Part shown: piece by piece, positions 20,917 to 36,900 of the stretch
Layout: each line of letters starts with the position of its first letter
Position numbering within the stretch: the stretch's first letter is position 1
Assembly: GCF_040183065.1 (NCBI RefSeq)
Contig: NC_091121.1
Span: forward strand, 66,377,787-66,441,786
Length of the DNA stretch: 64,000 bases
Direction: 5' to 3'
Origin: Periplaneta americana
Taxonomy: Eukaryota > Arthropoda > Insecta > Blattodea > Blattidae
Notes under the pieces: generated by a model
What the model saw: the letters and a program-made list of their open reading frames with translations, nothing else
What the model was told of the DNA's origin: nothing
Database searches by the model: none
Program-made: the position numbers and the translations under genes

Positions 20917-20924
20917 TTAAGATA

Positions 20925-21290
20925 ATTTGAAATTTCCATTATCACTCCCATACAAATGATTTCTCAATATCTGAACCGATCCTTTGAGGGCACTAATGGC
21001 TATTTCCTTCACAATGCTGTGTGTTAGCCCCAGGTTTTTACATTTGTTGGCAAAGAAGGAGGGTATGGTACCTTGTGCTCCCACCATCAGACCTATTACA
21101 TCAATGTGGGACAGGCTATATTTATCTTTATAGAACGGGATTGTTGGTTCATAGATCCGTTTCTTTTCACTGTCCACGTCATGCGGTTGATCTGCATGTG
21201 TCTCAAATCTGATGGTGGGATCGAGAATGTATGCCGAGTTGTTCTTAATGGCAATGAAACAAGAGACAGTGTAACTACAAATGTACATGT
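20925..21290 (-). mobile_element. LINE C-terminal endonuclease-like fragment
   Basis: The minus strand encodes about 120 residues with ILDPTIRFE, KKRIYEPTIPFYKDKY and IDVIGLMVGAQGTIPSFF, then a Leu-rich tail. In arthropods this order marks the C-terminus of non-LTR elements with a restriction-like endonuclease (R2-like), where a D...E/D core lies in the DPTIRFE region. It is 5'-truncated. A mixed TA/CA microsatellite follows at 21361-21412. Confidence 0.65.
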
Positions 21291-22215
21291 ATCTAAAAAA
21301 AAAAATAAAATAAGATCGGTGATCAGTGACAAATTGTTTGGTTTTTCAGGCTTTTAGTATACTTTGTGTGTGTATATATATATATATATATACACACACA
21401 CATATATACATTTTTTTTTTGATAGACAAATAGAGAGTTTTCGTAAGGTTAAGAATCCGACAGGTTAGGCTTGGTTCAGGCTTCTGATATGCTTAGCATT
21501 ATACACTTTTTGGTAGACCGGTACAAAAAATAGATTTACCCGGGACCAAAGGAAGGAATACTTTCCTCCGTAGTGCACATCATGGTGGTACCACTGGATT
21601 AGGTGGTGATTTCTTGTGGAAATGTCGGAGAAAGTCATCGGTTGGATACCGGTATATAAGAATGGAAGGTACCTATTTGGGATGGGTTTAGCTTTTGCAG
21701 TGATCACATCATTACTCTTAAAAGAGTCGTGCTACAATGCACAGATTATTTTCAATAATTTAAGTAGGTTTTTTTCGCCCGTGGTGCATAGCAAGATCGA
21801 AGTTTCACTCAATCTTTGGTGTGAGACGATCTAAAATGTCATTGTATCTACAATATTAATATAACTCTTGAAAATTCTACTGTTCATAATATCAATGTGA
21901 TATACTAAACTTTTATTTGCTTTTACATCTAAAAACCAAATGTTTTCGATGGTAATTATCGTTATTTTTTAGGATCTGTATCAGTTTGCCCAACCCTGAC
22001 CAAACAATTCAATTCCAGTACTTAATTCCCAAAATCATCTTTTATGTGAAAAGGAGCTATTTCTACATTACAGCGAAATTTCCTTATGAATGCACAACAT
22101 TAATGACGGGTAATATAATGGATCTAAATCATATATAACTGGTTTAACTGTTAATTCGATGTAGCACAAACTTTGAAATGAAAGAAATTAACATTACAAA
22201 TCTTCATTTTTAAAG

Positions 22216-22807
22216 CTAACAGCATGATCCTGAAGGCCCTTCCGAAGTTGAATCCTTGACCCTGACTTCCTGAAATGATGGAATACACTGTTTAATACAT
22301 TAATTTTAAAATAAAATTCCTACAGTTACCAATATCCTAAAGACGTAATATTGGTAATACCTTTGAAACATTACATTGCTCATCAGATGAACTTCCAATT
22401 TCTCCTCTAGTTTCACAAGCCGGTTTAAAAAATGTAGTTATTTCTTTCTGCCATACTGGAGTTTCGCGTGGAAAATAAGAGTTTCCTCCTGTAAACATGA
22501 GAAGTCATTTACCATAATTAAACTAAACCATACTCTGTATCGGTAGGCCTACTTTTATCTGTATATGTGTAGCAGCTCACCTTTCATAGGGTCAGAACTC
22601 CCAGTAGCACAATTAGGCCTACATGATGAAATATGAGCAACTTTTCTGGGAGCTTTTCCACCAGCCACTGAAAAGAATTTTAAAAACAATGTAATGAATT
22701 GTGAAATATAGTACAGGTAGGCCTATACTAATGAAAATATCTGTAGGTATGCAACAAGATAGCTAAGTACCTCTAATAGAACTCGATTCTGCCTTGGTTC
22801 TAACCAT
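22216..22807 (-). CDS. PCLAF: PCNA clamp-associated factor (PAF15), complete
   Basis: Four small exons on the minus strand: 22807-22771, 22667-22581, 22488-22361 and 22269-22216, all with GT-AG junctions and matching phases. They give 101 aa; human PCLAF has 111. The start reads MVRTKAESSSIR, nearly the human start. AGGKAPRKVAHISS (14-27) matches the human APRKV region. A canonical PIP box QKEITTFF (Q55, I58, F61, F62) would dock in the PCNA pocket; Trp54 precedes it as in the human protein. The family is a small disordered nuclear protein bound to PCNA at replication forks and ubiquitinated on N-terminal lysines. No KEN degron is visible. AATAAA on the minus strand (plus 21912-21917) is a plausible poly(A) signal. 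It is divergent from TRIP4. Confidence 0.92.
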
Positions 22808-23144: not shown

Positions 23145-26100
23145 ATGGCTGGTAACAGTGATAAAGAAGGATTATTTAATTGGGTGAATACTAAACTTTC
23201 TGCGATATTAGACTTTCCGGTGCCGCAAGACTTGACTCAGTAAGTGCGTTTAAAATAGTAATAATATCTATGAAATCTAATTGAGCGAACCTAACCTTAT
23301 TTTGTGTTGGACTAATGTCATTCTCCAAGTGTTTGGGAAACGAAGCTGTGTGTTTCATCACCAAAGAAGGCAGCAAGTTTTTTTTTGCTTCATTGACTAC
23401 TGTGAGATGTATGAAGTGATAAACACGTGTTTTAGTTTGCAGCTACAAATACTTTCAACCTAAAAACCGTTCCATACTTTCAATACAGTACATCACATGG
23501 ATGATGATCCGACGTGTAGCACATGAAAAATGCGGGGCGTCGGGCACTGAAAAGTGTCTTTTCGAGAACATGATGATGCGCATTTGACAAATGCTGACTC
23601 TGCTCTGCAGGTGCAGTCCGTGTTCTAAATTTTTCCCTTCATTCTGGCCCTCTTGTATGTTGGTAATTAGGTCTAATAACAAGTAGTGTGAGGGGGATGG
23701 GTCTATAACAGTGCATTGAAATGGAGCTTACAGGTAAATATCAAACGATTTTATGATGAAAGTATATGTGACTGCAAACTAAAACGATTAGTGGCCCTAA
23801 CAAAAACTTGGTATCATCATCATCATCATCATCATGAATCAGAACATCAGTAATTTAAGACACATATGAGATAAACATCTACAATCTGGCTATCCTCTGT
23901 TAGTTTCATGTGTTATAAATAACAATTTACTATTCGTGTCTTCAGCGCACTGTTTAATTATTATCTTAAAGCTTTGAAGGAGCAAGAGAGAAGATTTAGA
24001 ATGTAATTAACAAAATTTACCAGAAATTTAGGACAGCGTTTTTCAACATGTGGCACACTAAAGTTGTAATTTAAAATTCCGCGGCACACTCATATAATTA
24101 ATCTAAACCGTCAGTTGGTCCCAACTAGGGGGATTTTTTTTTTTTTCACAAAAACATGTAAAATATGATATTTCTTTAAGGTTGGTTCATAGAATGGAAT
24201 AGAATGTTTTATTTTCGCTGACAGAATTAAGGCCATAAAGCCTTCTCTTCCAGCCTTAATCAATACAATAGTGCCATAGTGACACTTGTGGCGGAAAAGG
24301 TCGAAGTTGTAATTTTTTTCGAGGTTCTCACATTTCCCCATATTAGATATCTACATCATTTCGTCAACATTCATTATGTCATCATTCCATAGCATTCCCT
24401 GAACACCGGTTTGTGATACACGGAGGGAGCTGACCTAGGAACGAGTGGGGTTGCCTGCTTGAAACCTGAGTACACAGTGAATCTTAGTCTAGTCAGCTGG
24501 TTTGTCATTCCTTCATACCATTTGCAAGGCTTGTTATGCATAACATTCAAACAGCTCCATTTCCACATCCATTTAAAATTGGACATATGTTTATAAGAAC
24601 TTTTTTTTTACTCAGAATAGCCCTCTACACCTGAAAGCAACAGTGCTGATGTAAGATCCATGCAGTCCACCTCTTTGGAGTAACAGTTAACATGTCTGTC
24701 AATGAAATGAGCAGGCCTGGGTAAAGATTCTGGTTGGGACAAATTACCTGGTTAGGATTTTTTCTAGATTTTCCTCTTTAACCCTTGAAGCAGAATTGCT
24801 GGATAACTTTCGACATAGGACCTCGGACTCATTTCGTCTTCATTAATTTCAACTTAATCTACATCTTCAATAGTTTCAGGTCGAATAACAAACACAGTAC
24901 CGTGATTCACCTACAGATGTCTTCTGTCTGGGGAGCTGCACAGATCCAGGGAAGCGTAGGGGCTTTCATGGCAGACTACTGAACACCAGGGAGTTCTTGG
25001 ACAGATGGCACCTTGGTGAGTCACGGTATCTGTGGCGCCATAATCTTCAGATCAATATTGGATGCAGCAGGATGTAGTACATGAATTACAAATAGATACC
25101 ATCGATCTGAGGAGGCCACAGAACATGAAAAGGGAGACAAAAGGGCGTTCCTGCCTATGTGAATTCCGTCAGAACTGGATGTTCTAGCTGAATTTATAAG
25201 ATGATACCAAGCAGTGAATCACATATTCATAGAAATGCTATCCTAAGGACTCCAACAATCATCCCAAAATATAAGGAGTTTGCACAGTAAGCCTCAGGGT
25301 GAGGTGCTAGCCTTTGGGCTCTCCTCAAAATAAATAAATGAAGTAATAATAAAAAAGATCCGTACAGTACAATAAATTACCGCAGGCCTAAGTGAAATAA
25401 ACTAATTTATAAAATAACTTACGTGTAGTGATAAACAAAATAGTGTTACGTACTCGTTAAAGTTCTATATGAACTGAATAAGTGTCAAAAAGTTTTTAAT
25501 GCATAGTTCATTGTAAAATACTCTTATAAAGGATTGAAAAATGTGTAACTTGGAAGTTTAAATTCTAAATCAGTTTGTCTTTGTTGCTAGATTAGCAGTC
25601 TTTCAAATAGGAAATACCCAAATTACTGTTTTATTCTGCTCTTCATGCATAAATTTTCCTTCTCTCTGTATCTTGAATTTTGTAAGAAGTTTTCAAATTT
25701 ACTTTGATACTAGAGAAATACAGTCATAATATGTTCTAGGTTGCCAAACCTCCTCATTAGTGGCTACTTAAGTCTGAACCATTCACTTTTCTCTCATACG
25801 TGGAGCTATATTTTCAGTTTTAAAACTAACTGAGAAACCTAAAATTATGATTTTGTTCTAACTAATGAATAAATAGTATTAACAAAACTTCTATTGCTAG
25901 CCAATTTTTCAGGTAAGTACGGTTTATATACTGTAATTAAATTAAAATATATGCATTATTTCTATTCTTTCCTTTGAACTATATTATCTATTACAGATAT
26001 ATATTGTCGATTGAAAATGCTAGAGATCTTGAAGATTACCTTAAAACTCTCCTCAACTTCAGCAATGCTCAGCATCGTCAGTTCTACATGGAACTATTAC

Positions 26101-29100
26101 AGAAACGCCAAGTTGGTAAGTTAAAAAAAATTAGTTTAGAGACATTCAGCAAACTCTTCAGACTTTCTAATTGCGAAATCAAAGTCAATATGGACGTAGA
26201 TTTAAGTGATCACACCACGTCATTCTAGTGCCGAAGTCAAGAGAACATGGAGCTGTACCTCTCTGCCCTCCAAACATTTTCATGGCATGTATAGGGGATA
26301 CCTTTACAAACACACACACACCAGTTAGCATGGTTGTCAGTCCAGCTGAAACAGGTATGTGTAGTGCTAGTCTCTGCGAGACCTGTGGAAAATATCTTCT
26401 TGTTTCCGCACCGTTTTTTGCTAGCTGCCACTGATTTTCCCACTTCGCAAATCAACGCGTACTACCACAGATTCCGCATCATACAAGACCCAACATGCAG
26501 CTGCAATAACGGTGAAGAAACAGTTGATCATATTTTACTCGAGTGCACGAAATACAACAAGCCCCGAAACAAACTGAAAATGATCATAAATTTCAAAGGA
26601 GGAAGGTGGCCACCGAACAAGACCGATCTCATGGAAAAATACTTGAAGGAATATTGTAAATTCATAAGAGAAGTAGATCTAGAAAGTAGACGAAACGTAT
26701 AGCATTAAGATAACGAAATGTTGAACACGTTAAGGTAAAAAAAAAAAACTATAAAATTGGAATTTAAACTTATACAGAAAAAGAGTTCACAAAATAGATT
26801 AAGAATAAGTAATAAATACCAATAAGACATTAGTTGAGGGATTATATTCAGACATATAAAATTTGTCAAAATAGAGTAAAATAAAATATGATTATATTAA
26901 GTTAATATAAATAATAATGTAGGATACAAGTCTCATAATAGAATATCAGAATACTTAATAACAATGTAACATATAATATACACTATTCAAAATTATTTCT
27001 AAGTTTATAATATGATATATTCATTCTAGTCACAATAGCATTAATTACATTGCCCTATAAGTAATAAATTCTGTCGCATATATGATTGTAAGAACATTGT
27101 AATCCTGCAAGCACAAACCAGACATGTAGGATTGCTTATGTAATGGAGCATGTTGTCCAAATAAAGATTGAAAAAAAAAAACACACACACACACGCACAC
27201 ACACACACACACAGATATATATTCTACATAAAATAATGTAAGAATACACAGCAATAACTTTGAAACCAAGGAACATGTTTTTATTCTGTTTGCTTTGTGA
27301 GATTAACAGATGTTGGGAGTTTTGTTACACAGTTTCTACATGTGCGCCTCTTGTTGCCCATGCAATGTCTAATCGAAAGTCAATTTTGTTCCAATTTTTT
27401 TAAGCATAACTGGTGTGATCGTAGAAATGATATCTCTTATTCTTACACGTAAGACTTGGAGATTAGCTATGGGTGTTCTATAGACATTGTCCTTTACATA
27501 ACCCCACATAAAGAAATCTAGTGGTGTTAAATCTGACGACCTCGGAGACCAAGGGATTAGACTATCTCTGCTGATCCATTGTCCAGGAAAAGAGTCATCA
27601 AGGAAGTGTCTTACTTGGAGAGACCAGTGCGGAAGCACCCCATCTTGTTGAATCAAGATATTTGGTAGTTGCGCAATTTGAGGTAGTAAAAATTCTTGTA
27701 ACATATCTAGGTACACGCCAGATGTCACCGTTTTTTCTGCGAAAAAGAATGGTCCGATTATTTGATCACACATAAGTCCGCACCACACATTGACTTTAGG
27801 ATTATCTCATGTTCCCTCACTATACGAAGCAGCTCAGATCCTCATATCCGAACATTGTGACGATTTATGCATCCCGACAAATGGAATGTCGTATCATCAA
27901 AAAACAGCACTCTTTGCAAGAAATTGTTATCTTCATCTATTCTGTGCAACATATCCACGGCAAAATTCATTCTTCTGTAATAGCCTGCACAATTTTAAGT
28001 TTGTAAGGAAGGAGCTTAAGATCCTTTCGAAGGACTTTGTGGATAGTTGATTGTGGAATTTGTAATTCTAGTGATGCACTAATAGACTTTGTTGGAAAGC
28101 TTCGTTTATTGCTGCAACTTGAGCTTCAGGTACACTCGGTCTTCCTGTAGGTTTTGCCTTTCCTACACTACCAGTTTGCATAAGTTTCTCATACCTTAGC
28201 CGAATATCACGTCTAGAAGGTGCATGATGAGTATTGTAGACTGTCCTATAATTTCTTTGAACTTATGTTGTTGAATTAGTCTGAATTAGCCATTCTACAC
28301 AGCGAGCTTTCTGTTCTAAATTCGCCATTTTCAGAAAAAATGTGACATACGGCTCAAACAACAATGACTATTGCCATGAATAAAATCTCCCAACTTTTGT
28401 TAACATCTTACAGTAACCATAATTCAATTCTGATCATGTTATTAGATATTTTGTTATTATTTTATTACATTATTTTATGTACACTGTGTACCGGGTATAT
28501 ATATTTTGCATAGTTAAAATAAATATGTAGGTTTACTCATTTTGTTAATTGTTATGTATTTTTAAGGTGTCTCCGGACTTGCCCAAGATGTTCAGGGGTA
28601 TAAAAAATCTGAAATGGAAGAAATATATATTCCTCCTACGCAGACAGAGAAGAAGAAGAAATCTAAAGGACAGCCAGAAGATGTTGCACCAAAGGAGAAT
28701 GTGAAGGTAGACAATGTTAAATTTACATATTATGTATATACAATATCATTTATGATGATTGTAAAATGATAGAAAATTATTTCTGTTCTTAATTAATGCT
28801 TTTTGTTAATAGGAATTTCAAGGAAAAAAGAAATCCAAGTTTGTTAATATTTATTCATCAGATGGCCAGGCTAGAGATGTAATTCTGCTGAAAGGTTAGT
28901 TACAATCTAGATAAATGAGTAAAACTTTACTTAGTCTTTTTAAGAACAAATTGACAATCGAAGTCCATATAAAATGAAGTGTTTTTTTTTTTTTTTTTTT
29001 ACTTATGCTAACAGCAGTAAACTGAGATGCTGCAGCATATTTCTAGTTTTCAGTCTCCCTAGGGAAACTGGTGTCTGTTTCAGCTGTACGCTGGCCATGA

Positions 29101-30957: not shown

Positions 30958-33900
30958 CTTGTTGTTATAAAATAATGGCAAACCTGTTCCAAACATGACC
31001 TTGCTTACTACAAATTACAGTTATACTGGGATTTAGACAGTGGTCTTCGGGATGGAAAATTGTCACTACACTTATTCAGCTGTGTTATAGTGTACGATTT
31101 ATTAATTTTAGGTCGTCATCGATGTGATTGCCAAGCAAGTAAACACAAGCTAGTGAATAACTGCCTCAAATGTGGTCGTATCGTGTGTGAGCAAGAGGGT
31201 TCTGGTCCCTGCCTCTTCTGTGACAATCTGGTAAGACAGAAGAACATTCAGAATAGTATAATAGTAGATGCTGTCAAAAGGTATAAATAATTAAGGCAGC
31301 TATCCACTTAAAAAATATTAGCATGGCAAATGATGAAATGGATAAATTCGCTTACCTACTGTAATTATTGTATAGTAATACTTAACTAAAGTGTCTTGTT
31401 ATAAATTAAACATATTGATTGCATAGGTTTGTTCCCGAGAAGAACAGCAGTTGTTAGTGTCTGGATCTAAGCAAGCTGAACAATTATACCAGAAACTTGT
31501 GGATCAAAAGAAACCTGAAGGTTTGGAGTCTGCCATACAGCAAAGAAATCGTTTGCTTGAATATGACAGGACAAGGCAAGTTTTGTAGTTTCTTTCGAAT
31601 CTGAATGTTGTCTTCATAAGCAGTCAGCGTACATAACTAGAATGAGCACAGGCTGCTTTACAGGCCACACCACCACCTCCTCCTCCTCCCCACACCCATC
31701 CCCTCCCCTCCCCCCTCCTCCTCCTCCTGTTGTTGCTACTGCCATTTCCATCACTTTTCTTCTCTCTGTCATCATCCTCTTTCTGCATCTATATCTTTAT
31801 TAAAACAGAAATGTTATTTCATTTATATTATTTAAACGTATGATGTTAACTAAATAAAATATGAAATAATTTTAAAACATTTTAGACATATAATAATAGT
31901 ACAGTGAAACCTCGATCCATCGTTTTTTAGGGGAACAGGGAATAAAAACTATAAATACGGGAAAACAATAATATTGGAAACCATAAAAATTACCATATTT
32001 AGGCATATAATAGACGCATTGCACTGTTCCATAGACAATTTAAGGTAGAAAGACCAACATAATTCATGCTTTTAATTTTTAACAATTATGTTCAATAATG
32101 TAAAATCATAATGGACATGTCTCGTAATATTTTTTTTTTTTTTTTTTTGTAAACTTGCGATTTAAAAATTCTATTGTTTGCTTAAATAGGATATAAAATA
32201 AACAACAGATTGGCTACCCTGATTGCACCTTTATTAGAAAACTATATACTGGTACATTATTTCTTGCAGAAAAAGTCTTGGTTAGCTTTTGTTTCGTGCA
32301 TGTTACAATTCTATAGTGAATTTCAGATAAGAATGATACTGAGGTAAACAGAAAGGTAGAGTTTTACCACCTCTCACACCAGTGTACCAAGTCATGTGTG
32401 TGTGTTGAGGATAACGTATGCATTAGAAATTAGTTTGCTATTCCTTATGTTGGTTATTATTGATAATTTAGACAGAAATGAAGTATATTCAAATCATAAA
32501 CCTAGATTCGTCTTACATTTACAATGCAGATATGTGTTACCACAAATCCATTCCCATAAAATTAATACTACTGTCTAAAGTAGATGGGCTTCCGTTAGCC
32601 CTTACTGTTGCATTATATGCAACTAGAACCTGCGTCACAAATTAGGCCTATACCATATCGCATGAAAATAATGCCAAGACTTGTTAAGCTCTTTAGTAAT
32701 CCTACAAAGATACTTTTCCTGTACGTGTCTAAGCATGTAAACATGTACTGAACATAAACAATCAACAGAAACACTTGTCACTGTGGAGATTGGCATCTGT
32801 GTTGTAGCACAGCCGACTAAACAAGTCTCAGCATTAAGACGACAATTCTCTTTAAGTAAAATGACTGCGTAATATATTCCATAATAATATCGAGTTAGGT
32901 TTGGAAGTAAATCCCGAAAAGGCAGTGTATGATTATGTCTCGTGTCCAAAATATTGTACGAAATGGAAATATAAAAATTGGAAATTTATCCTTTGAAGAG
33001 GTGGGAAAATTCAAATATCTTGGAGCAACAATATAAATGATACTCGGGAGGAAATTAAATGCAGAATTAATATCGGAAATGCGTGTTATTATTCAGTTGA
33101 GAAGCTTTTATCGTCCAGTCTGCTCTCAAAAAAGCTGAAGAATAAGGTGCTTAGGAAAATATTTGGGGCTAAGAGAGGTGAAGTTACAGGAAAATGGAGA
33201 AAGTTACATAACGCAGAACTGCATGCATTTTATTCTTCACCTGACATAATTAAGAACATTAAATCCAGACGTTTGAGATGGGCAGGGCGTTAGCATGTAT
33301 GGACGAATCCAGAAATGCATATGAAGTGTTAGTTGGGAGGCCGGAGGAAATAAGACCTTTGGGAATGCCGAGACGTAGATGGGAGGATAATATAAAAATG
33401 GATTTAAGGGAGGTGGGATATGATGGTAGAGACTGTATTAATCTTGCTCAGGATAGGGACCAATGGCAGGCTTATGTGAGAGCAGCAATGAACCTCCGGG
33501 TTCCTTAAAAGCTATAAGTAAGTAATAATGTCTAGTGTTTTGTACACCTCCACATCACTCTTGTGTGGAAAAATCGGATTAATCAATAAGTTACTATAAA
33601 ATTGCATTTCTTTTCAGAATCATAGCACAGATCACATACGTAATAACTAATTTCCATATTAACAGATTATACCAAACACAAGTGGAGATTTCACATGCTG
33701 TAATAAGATGATGAATCACGTTACATATCATGGCAGTGTAATACATTTTGCATTTCTCCACAAAGTGTGATACAGTCCCCGAATCACTATCTTCTGCATC
33801 TTCTTGCTTCGAAAATAATGAAGTAAAAGAAACTATCCATGCAGGAAAATATTGGTTTGGAACTGTGATTTCTCAATGATCGATGCGATAAAACGATAAT

Positions 33901-36900
33901 TTGGGTAACGATGAAACTGGGGGGGGGGGGGGGGGAAATAGCATTATTTATATGGGACTATTTCCAGGATCAAAAAGAAAAAGCGGACAAAAAAGAGCAG
34001 AAAAACGACGATAACGGGAATGATGCATCGAGGTTCCACCGTAGTAATAATAATAATAATAACACTATTCATTTGAAATCGTTTCACATGGTAGATACTG
34101 CATAAAATTTAATAGAAAGAGTAGGTGTAATTTATATTGCACTTTTTATTTATAGTGACAGTAAAACGAAGCAATATCTGTCTTTGATCATTCCTTCAAA
34201 TTGTCAGACTTATATCTGTAATATACTTCTTGAGAGTATGCAGTTCTTTCCTATAATGTGGTTTGTTTCTTTCTACAGTGAGAGACGTACAAAGGTCATT
34301 GATGATGAAAGTGATTACTTCAGATCCAATTCAGTATGGCTATCCAAAGCAGAACGAGAAAAATTGCAACAGAAAGAAGAGGAACTTCGAGCAAAGCGTC
34401 ATTCATCTCGTCTAGACAGGAAAATCACTCTGGATTTTGCAGGTTCACTATTCAGAAGTTCTAAATACGTGCATATACATTGGAACTTAGAGTTTTTAGA
34501 GATAAGCAGGGCTGTGGTTATGATAACATTCGGTCATTTTGTTGTTTATATGTCAGACAGTATACGTAATAGAATTTGTCCTTGAATCTATTAGTTTTTT
34601 TTTCCCCCCTCTGATTGACGATATTGACTTTTGATTATTCATCAAAGCATCCCCAGCTATGAACGACACACCGAAACTATAGAACTCCTTTTGCTATGTA
34701 GGCATGGCCCTCAATGCGCCATTGAAGGCGAACTGCATAGCACTGCATGATGATGATGGTTAGTGGAGCAATAGTGGAATGTCAGTAGAGGAAACAGAAA
34801 TAACTCCCATTGAAAATCTGCCATCAAGCACTGTTTGTCGAGGACGAATTCCATTTGAACCTGTTGGGTTCAAACCTGGGCTACCAAAGTGCAAAGGCAT
34901 TATTCTAGCCATTTGACTAATAGTGTACTCGGTTTCATTAGTATAGTAGTACTTACTTTATTTGCAACTTTTTATCCTGTTTTATTTGAATTTTTAAGGG
35001 TTGTTTCTACCTTTATCATAATTATGTATTGATTTTCACCCATTCTTATTTGATTTTAGTGTTTTTTATTTGTGCGTTTTATTATTAAGTTATTTTCAAA
35101 TGTTATTATCATTATCATGATTATGTCTCGTGACCAGAATATTGTACGAAATGGAAATATAAAAATTGGAGATTTATCCTTCGAAGAGGTGGAAAAATTC
35201 AAATATCTTGGAGCAACAGTAACAAATATAAATGACACTCGGGAGGAAATTAAACGCAGAATAAATATGGGAAATGCGTGTTATTATTCGGTTGAGAAGC
35301 TCTTATCATCCAGTCTGCTGTCCAAAAATCTGAAAGTTAGAATTTATAAAACAGTTATATTACCAGTTCTTCTGTATGGTTGTGAAACTTGGACTCTCAC
35401 TTTGAGAGAGGAGCATAGGTTAAGGGTGTTTGAGAATAAGGTGCTTAGGAAAATATTTGGGGCTAAGCGGGATGAAGTTACAGGAGAATGGAGAAAGTTA
35501 CACAACATAGAACTGCACGCATTGTATTCTTCACCTAACATAATTAGGAACTTAAAATCCAGACGTTTTAGATGGGCAGGGCATGTAGCACGTATGGGCG
35601 AATCCAGTAATGCATATAGAGTGTTAGTTGGGAGACCGGAGGGAAAAAGACCTTTAGGGAGGCCGAGACGTAGATGGGAGGATAATATTAAAATGGATTT
35701 GAGGGAGGTGGGGTGTGATGATAGAGACTGGATTAATCTTGCACAGGATAGGGACTGATGGCGGGCTTATGTGAGGGCGGCAATGAACCTTCGGGTTCCT
35801 TAAAAGCCATTTGTAAATAAGTAAGTATTATCATTGCTTACTAAAAACTTTTTCATTTACTCTGAAGAATGTGAAGTACTCCAGTGATAGAAACCACAAA
35901 ACATAAAATTGGAAGAGGGCTTTCTAGTTTTTACATATTATCTTTTTTACCACATCTGATTACCATTTCCATTTTCTTAGACCTGCTACTTTTTCTATAA
36001 TTAAAATCTTGTTTAAGGTTGCAAGAAGTAGTGAAGTCCTTTCCATAACCCCTCCTACTCAAATCCCATTCTCACCTTCCCTTGGTGCAACCTGTTTTTA
36101 ACAAGCAAGGCTCTGAGGACCAAGTCAAAAATGGAGGAAATGCCATTTCAGCATGCTGATTTTCCATGGCATGCATAAACATCCCCTAAGACAGATGGTC
36201 GGTGGAGTTGTCCTGGCTAGGTCATATGGACCTGCTAACCAATGGCAGGTGTGGTCCTCCAAGCAGTTTGAAAGTTGCGTGTAGATTATAACTATCATAA
36301 TGTAAAAAAATATGGTGTGTACGTTAAAACGGTTTTATTTTTTTGCTACATCACTCTCCAATATCTTTTTGCATAATGTCAGGAGAAATAAAATATTCCA
36401 GAGGTAAAATAGTTTCCAGGAAAACAATAATCCTGTTTATCATGCGCCTATTAGCAATGGTGATATCAGGAATACTTCGAAATTTTCATGTTGTTCTCAG
36501 TGATTTACATTTCGTAAATCATACATAAATAACTACTGTTCATACTGTCAGCATGATTACACTCAGCAACTGATTGTCAGCAACTTAAGAAATTACTTTT
36601 CTCATAGGGTGACCCAAGTCATTTATCTGAGTTTGAAGTGCATGTGATTTAACAGTATGCCGATTTTCCTTACAAATATATTACCGAAAAATGAGCAGCA
36701 TGTTTTCTAAACAGATGAACAGTCATTGCTAATATGCAGGCTGTTGCATTGCATGTCATTGTATGCTGATGCGTATATTAGCTTAAAAGTGAGAGTGGTA
36801 CAGTTTCAGGACAGTATGCCAGAATTGCAATATTTGTATATTTCAGGACGTCAAGTTTTGGAGGATGATGAGTCAGAGATATTTTATGATGCAGAGGACA

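Follow-up and report, generated by a model that had tools for sequence, protein, structure and literature searches.

A cockroach PCLAF gene with the histone H3 motif GGKAPRK and a possible shift of its ubiquitylated lysine pair

A PCLAF/PAF15 protein of 101 amino acids, with the tail sequence MVRTKAESSSIRVAGGKAPRKVAH, is encoded by a gene of four exons bounded by GT/AG that occupies 22807-22216 on the minus strand of the window, that is, the whole 64,000-nucleotide stretch of Periplaneta americana DNA that was analysed (Table 1). Exons 1 and 2 (22807-22771 and 22667-22581) translate to MVRTKAESSSIR-VAGGKAPRKVAHISSCRPNCATGSSDPMK. The original prediction was placed on the interval 22581..22807, which comprises these two exons and the 103-base intron between them; the gene runs on through exons 3 and 4. 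The residues claimed there, R3-T4-K5 and G15-G16-K17-A18-P19-R20-K21, agree with the exon 1/2 translation. The naming of the gene as PCLAF was likewise borne out, both by the Pfam PAF profile (PF15715, described as 'PCNA-associated factor histone like domain'), which gave 72.2 bits (cut-off 23.4) over profile positions 1-94 of 121, and by alignment to human PCLAF (letters taken from a passage of PMC11222446), where 25 of the 70 aligned residues are identical. A search of solved structures (E up to 10) returned as its sole match the human PAF15 peptide of PDB 6gws, which paired weakly (E 0.18) with exon 3, and the VRTK that directly follows Met is a family feature.

A TRIP4 gene, the domains of which were found by Pfam, lies divergently to PCLAF on the plus strand from 23145, and a passage of PMC7185143 describes human KIAA0101/PCLAF and TRIP4 as divergent neighbours likewise. 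Owing to the Pfam score, the identity to the human protein, the 6gws match and the divergent TRIP4, the PCLAF/PAF15 assignment is secure. A protein search of the genome (3.23 Gb in 91 contigs; E up to 1) gave three matches, all of them exons of this same gene, and the Pfam PAF search of the genome matched its exon 3 alone. No second or intronless PCLAF copy was found in the protein search at that threshold, and a single PCLAF (PAF15) gene was thus detected in the genome.

The observed/expected CpG ratio was 0.89 in the gap between the two genes, 0.37 in the PCLAF gene and 0.58 in the whole window, values compatible with a genome that is methylated now or was so formerly. The 337-base gap is less CpG-depleted than its surroundings and contains GTGGCGCGC, which we take to be reminiscent of an E2F site. 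Just downstream of PCLAF exon 4, open stretches were noted on the minus strand at 20920-21731, of which the piece 20920-21345 had no Pfam match at E 0.01; they are perhaps a decayed mobile element.

Table 1. Coordinates of the features at the PCLAF-TRIP4 locus (positions in the window) and of the DNMT1 stretches and UHRF1 genes elsewhere in the genome (contig:position)
Feature	Position	Strand	Remarks
PCLAF exon 1	22771..22807	-	MVRTKAESSSIR + first base of codon 13; donor GTACTT
PCLAF intron 1	22668..22770	-	103 bases, phase 1
PCLAF exon 2	22581..22667	-	VAGGKAPRKVAH...DPMK; acceptor TTTTCAG, donor GTGAGC
GGKAPRK, residues 15-21	22642..22662	-	exon 2
PCLAF exon 3	22361..22488	-	carries PIP box
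PIP box QKEITTFF, residues 55-62 (predicted PCNA binding)	22427..22450	-	aligned with human QKGIGEFF
PCLAF exon 4 and stop codon	22216..22269	-	acceptor ATTTCAG
PCLAF-TRIP4, start codon to start codon	22808..23144	.	337 bases; presumed shared promoter region
TRIP4 exon 1	23145..23240	+	first part of TRI4_N, 17.1 bits, below cut-off 27.8
TRIP4 stretch, rest of TRI4_N	25998..26111	+	49.7 bits, above cut-off
TRIP4 stretch, zf-C2HC5	31111..31287	+	48.2 bits
TRIP4 third domain (TRIP4_3rd)	34304..34444	+	82.9 bits
DNMT1 motif I	C12:68558607	RFTS strand	catalytic stretch
DNMT1 PCQ	C12:68571541	RFTS strand	catalytic stretch
DNMT1 ENV	C12:68572863	RFTS strand	catalytic stretch
DNMT1 further catalytic stretch	C12:68583569	RFTS strand	
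DNMT1 motif X	C12:68589428	RFTS strand	catalytic stretch
UHRF1 copy	C2:136753.6-136755.9 kb		single-exon open frame
UHRF1 copy	C3:125098.8-125101.3 kb		single-exon open frame
UHRF1 copy	C10:123349.0-123351.4 kb		single-exon open frame
UHRF1 copy	C10:125459.3-125461.7 kb		single-exon open frame

A six-frame scan of the window for the pattern G[GA]KAP[RK]K gave a single match, the GGKAPRK of PCLAF exon 2. The original prediction held that VRTK and an APRK remnant are all that human PCLAF has of the H3 tail and that the cockroach protein is a much closer H3 mimic, and neither statement survived the comparison. The human protein has T-x-R-K and a Leu in common with H3 as well. Aligned without gaps to H3 6-20 (TARKSTGGKAPRKQL), human PCLAF 12-26 (TYRKVVAARAPRKVL) is identical at 8 of 15 places and cockroach PCLAF 9-23 (SSIRVAGGKAPRKVA) at 7 of 15, so that the closer likeness holds for the seven-residue block alone. 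With the APRK that both proteins have held fixed and the other 11 residues shuffled, the observed count was attained in 103 of 20,000 shuffles for human and in 1372 of 20,000 for cockroach PCLAF. Alignment to H3 1-27 gave a score of 37 with 11 identities for human and of 35 with 7 identities for cockroach PCLAF, scores that were reached in 5 and 2, respectively, of 2000 shuffles of the residues after VRTK; the gap cost of the aligner brought the cockroach GGKAPRK, but not its RTK, into register with H3. When a two-residue gap is allowed, RTK and GGKAPRK together yield 10 identities (by eye).

Human and cockroach PCLAF thus appear about equally H3-like, at different places. Both tails can be described as mosaics of one H3-like stretch, of which the human protein would have kept TxRK and the Leu, and the cockroach protein GGK. 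Human PCLAF has a Leu that matches H3 L20; cockroach PCLAF has none at this place, where a Leu raised the Pfam score by 1.4 bits. The added H3 resemblance would then be a local change in a tail whose human counterpart is itself H3-like, and not an overall stronger mimicry.

In the same ungapped register, human K15 and K24 line up with H3 K9 and K18, respectively, while cockroach Lys17 and Lys21 line up with H3 K14 and K18, as had been proposed for the latter two; this reading of the lysines rests on one sequence. What the original prediction had missed is that the equivalent of human K15, one of the two lysines known to be ubiquitylated, is absent: at the exon 1/2 junction, R12 and V13 are adjacent. 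K21 occupies the place of human K24, and the vertebrate pair of K15 and K24 is not found. A claim of vertebrate-type (K15/K24) ubiquitylation would therefore seem to fall for cockroach PCLAF. A residue inserted after R12 improved the Pfam score by 2.4 bits for Lys, 1.7 for Arg and 0.2 for Ser or Leu, and since the profile expects Lys at this place, its absence is unusual. No alternative splice that regains a lysine at the junction was seen on inspection of the borders of the 103-base intron by eye. Orthology is based on the Pfam score, VRTK, the PIP box and synteny, the K15/K24 pair being a feature of the vertebrate mechanism and not of the gene family.

The mechanism on which the original prediction drew, in which UHRF1 acts on both the H3 tail and PAF15, agrees with the passages of PMC7060239 consulted here. 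According to these, the UHRF1 PHD finger reads VRTK like ARTK, with D334 and D337 of UHRF1 holding R3 of PAF15, and both ubiquitins on PAF15 are required for DNMT1: in Xenopus, where K18 and K27 correspond to human K15 and K24, either K18R or K27R abolishes binding. The same passages propose a DNMT1 code of lysines 4-9 apart (K14~K18~K23 in H3, K15~K24 in PAF15).

A further suggestion had been to look for UHRF1 and DNMT1 in this genome, and DNMT1 exons and four open UHRF1 genes were found. DNMT1 is present as an exon for its RFTS domain (C12:68509046, 82.2 bits; against PDB chains of DNMT1 RFTS, E down to 3.9e-31). Downstream of it on the same strand, five catalytic-domain stretches follow in order, the first and last of them being motifs I and X. 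Where Pfam matches the ENV stretch, the alignment crosses one TAA, which was taken as an exon border, and 'present' is not to be equated with 'intact'. Apart from this gene, a cytosine-methylase open frame of 659 amino acids (223 bits) was observed at C85:208170-209009, which is possibly bacterial DNA in the assembly.

The four UHRF1 genes are open over 756, 819, 816 and 813 residues from MYV, and all of them have the ubiquitin-like, TTD, PHD and SRA domains above the Pfam cut-offs. A RING-like cysteine pattern is also present in all four, and Pfam RING families matched three of them, each time below the cut-off, the copy on C3 having no match at E 0.001. When the genome was searched for TTD, 4 of 11 candidates matched, all at these four genes, and an intron-bearing UHRF1 was not detected in the TTD and SRA searches. 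Three further SRA matches, divergent and with split frames, were noted at C17:116030531-116033010 and C14:69272567. Three of the copies are 82-86% identical to each other, with dN/dS of 0.29-0.46, and identity of the C2 copy to these three is 59-62% (dS returned as -1, taken as saturation). The four genes look like old retrogenes and may have replaced their parent gene; a literature search found no paper on retrogene UHRF1 in insects.

The PHD finger of the copy at C10:123.35 Mb matched UHRF1 PHD chains in the PDB with E down to 1.2e-24. Its residues and those of the other copies were identified by visual inspection of the alignment, the search pattern for the PHD finger having matched none of the four. 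On this reading, the copies on C3 and at C10:123.35 Mb have Asp at the places of both D334 and D337, and those on C2 and at C10:125.46 Mb have Asn at the D337 place, so that not every UHRF1 copy can be relied on to read VRTK. With DNMT1 exons and four open intronless UHRF1 genes in the genome, a UHRF1-DNMT1 pathway in the cockroach is plausible.

The explanation that we favour is that Met1 is removed and the VRTK end (residues 2-5) would be bound by the UHRF1 PHD finger as in vertebrates, that PCLAF would ride on PCNA via its PIP box, and that UHRF1 would mono-ubiquitylate two tail lysines for DNMT1. Because K15 is missing, the pair would be K17 and K21, in the arrangement of H3 K14/K18 (four apart) and not in that of vertebrate K15/K24 (nine apart), and being four apart it would lie inside the proposed 4-9 spacing. 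What counts against this pair is that the H3 lysines in the DNMT1 structures, as far as the source passages describe them, are K18/K23 and not K14/K18. Taken as a whole, the explanation seems to us to have somewhat the better of the argument.

A serious contender, to which we would give a little under an even chance, is that GGKAPRK arose by drift in columns where the family is tolerant, with no H3-related function beyond that of other PCLAF proteins, and that K21 is ubiquitylated together with another lysine, or that none is. Cockroach PCLAF and 39 altered copies (40 entries) were scored with the Pfam PAF profile. Of 12 residues tried at position 17, Lys came out highest (72.2 bits), followed by Arg (71.6) and ten others at 70.3 or less; at residue 16, Ala reached 73.2, Gly 72.2 and seven others probed at most 70.5; and at residue 15, Ala reached 73.7, Thr 72.5, Ser 72.4, Gly 72.2 and five others probed at most 70.9. 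Lys17 is hence the profile's own preference, slightly over the human Arg, which leaves mainly the GG as unusual. The rough frequencies in the probed columns are about 0.30 for Lys17, 0.20 for Gly16 and 0.11 for Gly15, or in combination about 0.65% for GGK, 2.8% for AAR and 4.7% for AAK, estimates that derive from a profile with priors and not from counted sequences, with unprobed residues set to the lowest probed score and background frequencies assumed. A GGK at about 0.0065 is not extraordinary among many family members, and drift is also favoured by the 1372 of 20,000 APRK-retaining shuffles above, which attain the 7/15 match to H3 6-20, and by the lack of a K15 equivalent as well as of the Leu that follows APRK. 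It accounts less well for two adjacent residues that both agree with H3 in register next to a VRTK that has been retained, or for the rarity of any 7-mer of H3 1-37 in shuffles of the whole 101-residue protein (2 of 200,000), a statistic that ignores family kinship.

It is also conceivable, if rather unlikely, that GGKAPRK preserves an ancestral, fuller H3 mimic that was lost in vertebrates. Such an ancestor would explain why the human T-RK....APRK-L and the cockroach GGKAPRK complement each other along a single collinear stretch of H3, and the profile favours Lys17, a Lys at the K15 place and a Leu after APRK-V. On the other hand, the profile prefers Ala over Gly by 1.5 bits at residue 15 and 1.0 bits at residue 16, and with only two lineages compared, gain in one and loss in the other are indistinguishable. 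Searches for other PCLAF genes gave three pattern stretches in viral contigs and 49 in prokaryote contigs, none of which was confirmed, and a search of paper text for MVRTKA, VRTKAD and VRTKAE returned the human sequence only. In its most extended form, which strikes us as doubtful, PCLAF started out with an almost complete H3 tail in collinear order (VRTK ... TxRK-xx-GGKAPRK-xL), of which the K9-like and K18-like lysines (human K15, K24) were retained in vertebrates and the K14-like and K18-like ones (K17, K21) in the cockroach lineage, the ubiquitin code shifting register within the 4-9 spacing alongside an expansion of UHRF1 to four intronless genes. If true, the UHRF1-DNMT1 ubiquitin code on PCLAF would have moved register yet stayed within the proposed spacing.

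The consensus for GCN5-type acetylation is G-K-x-P. GGKAPRK might have been kept as such a site, or as the site of another H3-tail reader or writer, and not for ubiquitylation, which we consider improbable. GGKAPR is the context of H3 K14, and a passage of PMC6316679 reports that acetylation and ubiquitylation are mutually exclusive on H3 K14, K18 and K23, which would suit this reading; against it, the role described for the PCLAF tail in the passages of PMC7060239 is in UHRF1/DNMT1. Copying of GGKAPRK into PCLAF from a histone H3 gene, for which the seven identical residues would speak, was rejected as most improbable, given that six of the seven codons differ from the three H3 copies compared (of at least 150) and that the flanking residues are unlike H3. 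Histone H3 itself is present in at least 150 copies with 99% identity to the query, which form arrays on C9, C10 and C24 (150 of 303 candidates scored). The copies are mostly about 12-25 kb apart (by eye), which suggests a very long histone repeat unit.

To return to the favoured explanation, ubiquitylation of K17 and K21 for DNMT1, what would be new is that the lysine pair has moved to the H3-like K14/K18 places, away from the vertebrate K15/K24, the general H3 mimicry of PCLAF being known already. Such variants may already be contained in Figure 2b of PMC7060239, the legend of which announces PAF15 versus H3 'across different species'. Insect PAF15 is not mentioned in the examined passages of PMC7060239, PMC11343034, PMC10538959, PMC9681727, PMC9943068, PMC6316679, PMC11662662 and PMC12704277, and a search mainly of paper listings found no report of PCLAF-mediated DNMT1 recruitment outside vertebrates. 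Cockroach PCLAF, which is without one known lysine and has an H3 K14/K18 pair instead, offers a natural test of the 4-9 spacing rule, and could show if PCLAF-based DNMT1 recruitment works outside vertebrates.

Compared with the PAF15 (PCLAF, KIAA0101) of human, Xenopus and mouse, the cockroach protein has in common the VRTK start, APRK, GGN...TP.WQK.I..FF including the PIP box, and the Pfam PAF match, and with human also the divergent TRIP4 neighbour. It differs from human PCLAF in having GGK where AAR precedes APRK, in a spacer of 9 residues from RTK to GGK as opposed to 12 from RTK to AAR, and in being without a K15 equivalent, without the Leu after APRK-V and, in its C-terminal part, without KEN. 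With the histone H3 tail it shares RTK near the N-terminus and GGKAPRK, and its two lysines at the places of K14 and K18 are likewise four apart. Unlike H3, however, it is not a histone and carries a PIP box, has two extra residues between RTK and GGKAPRK, and is without TARK, K9, QL and K23.
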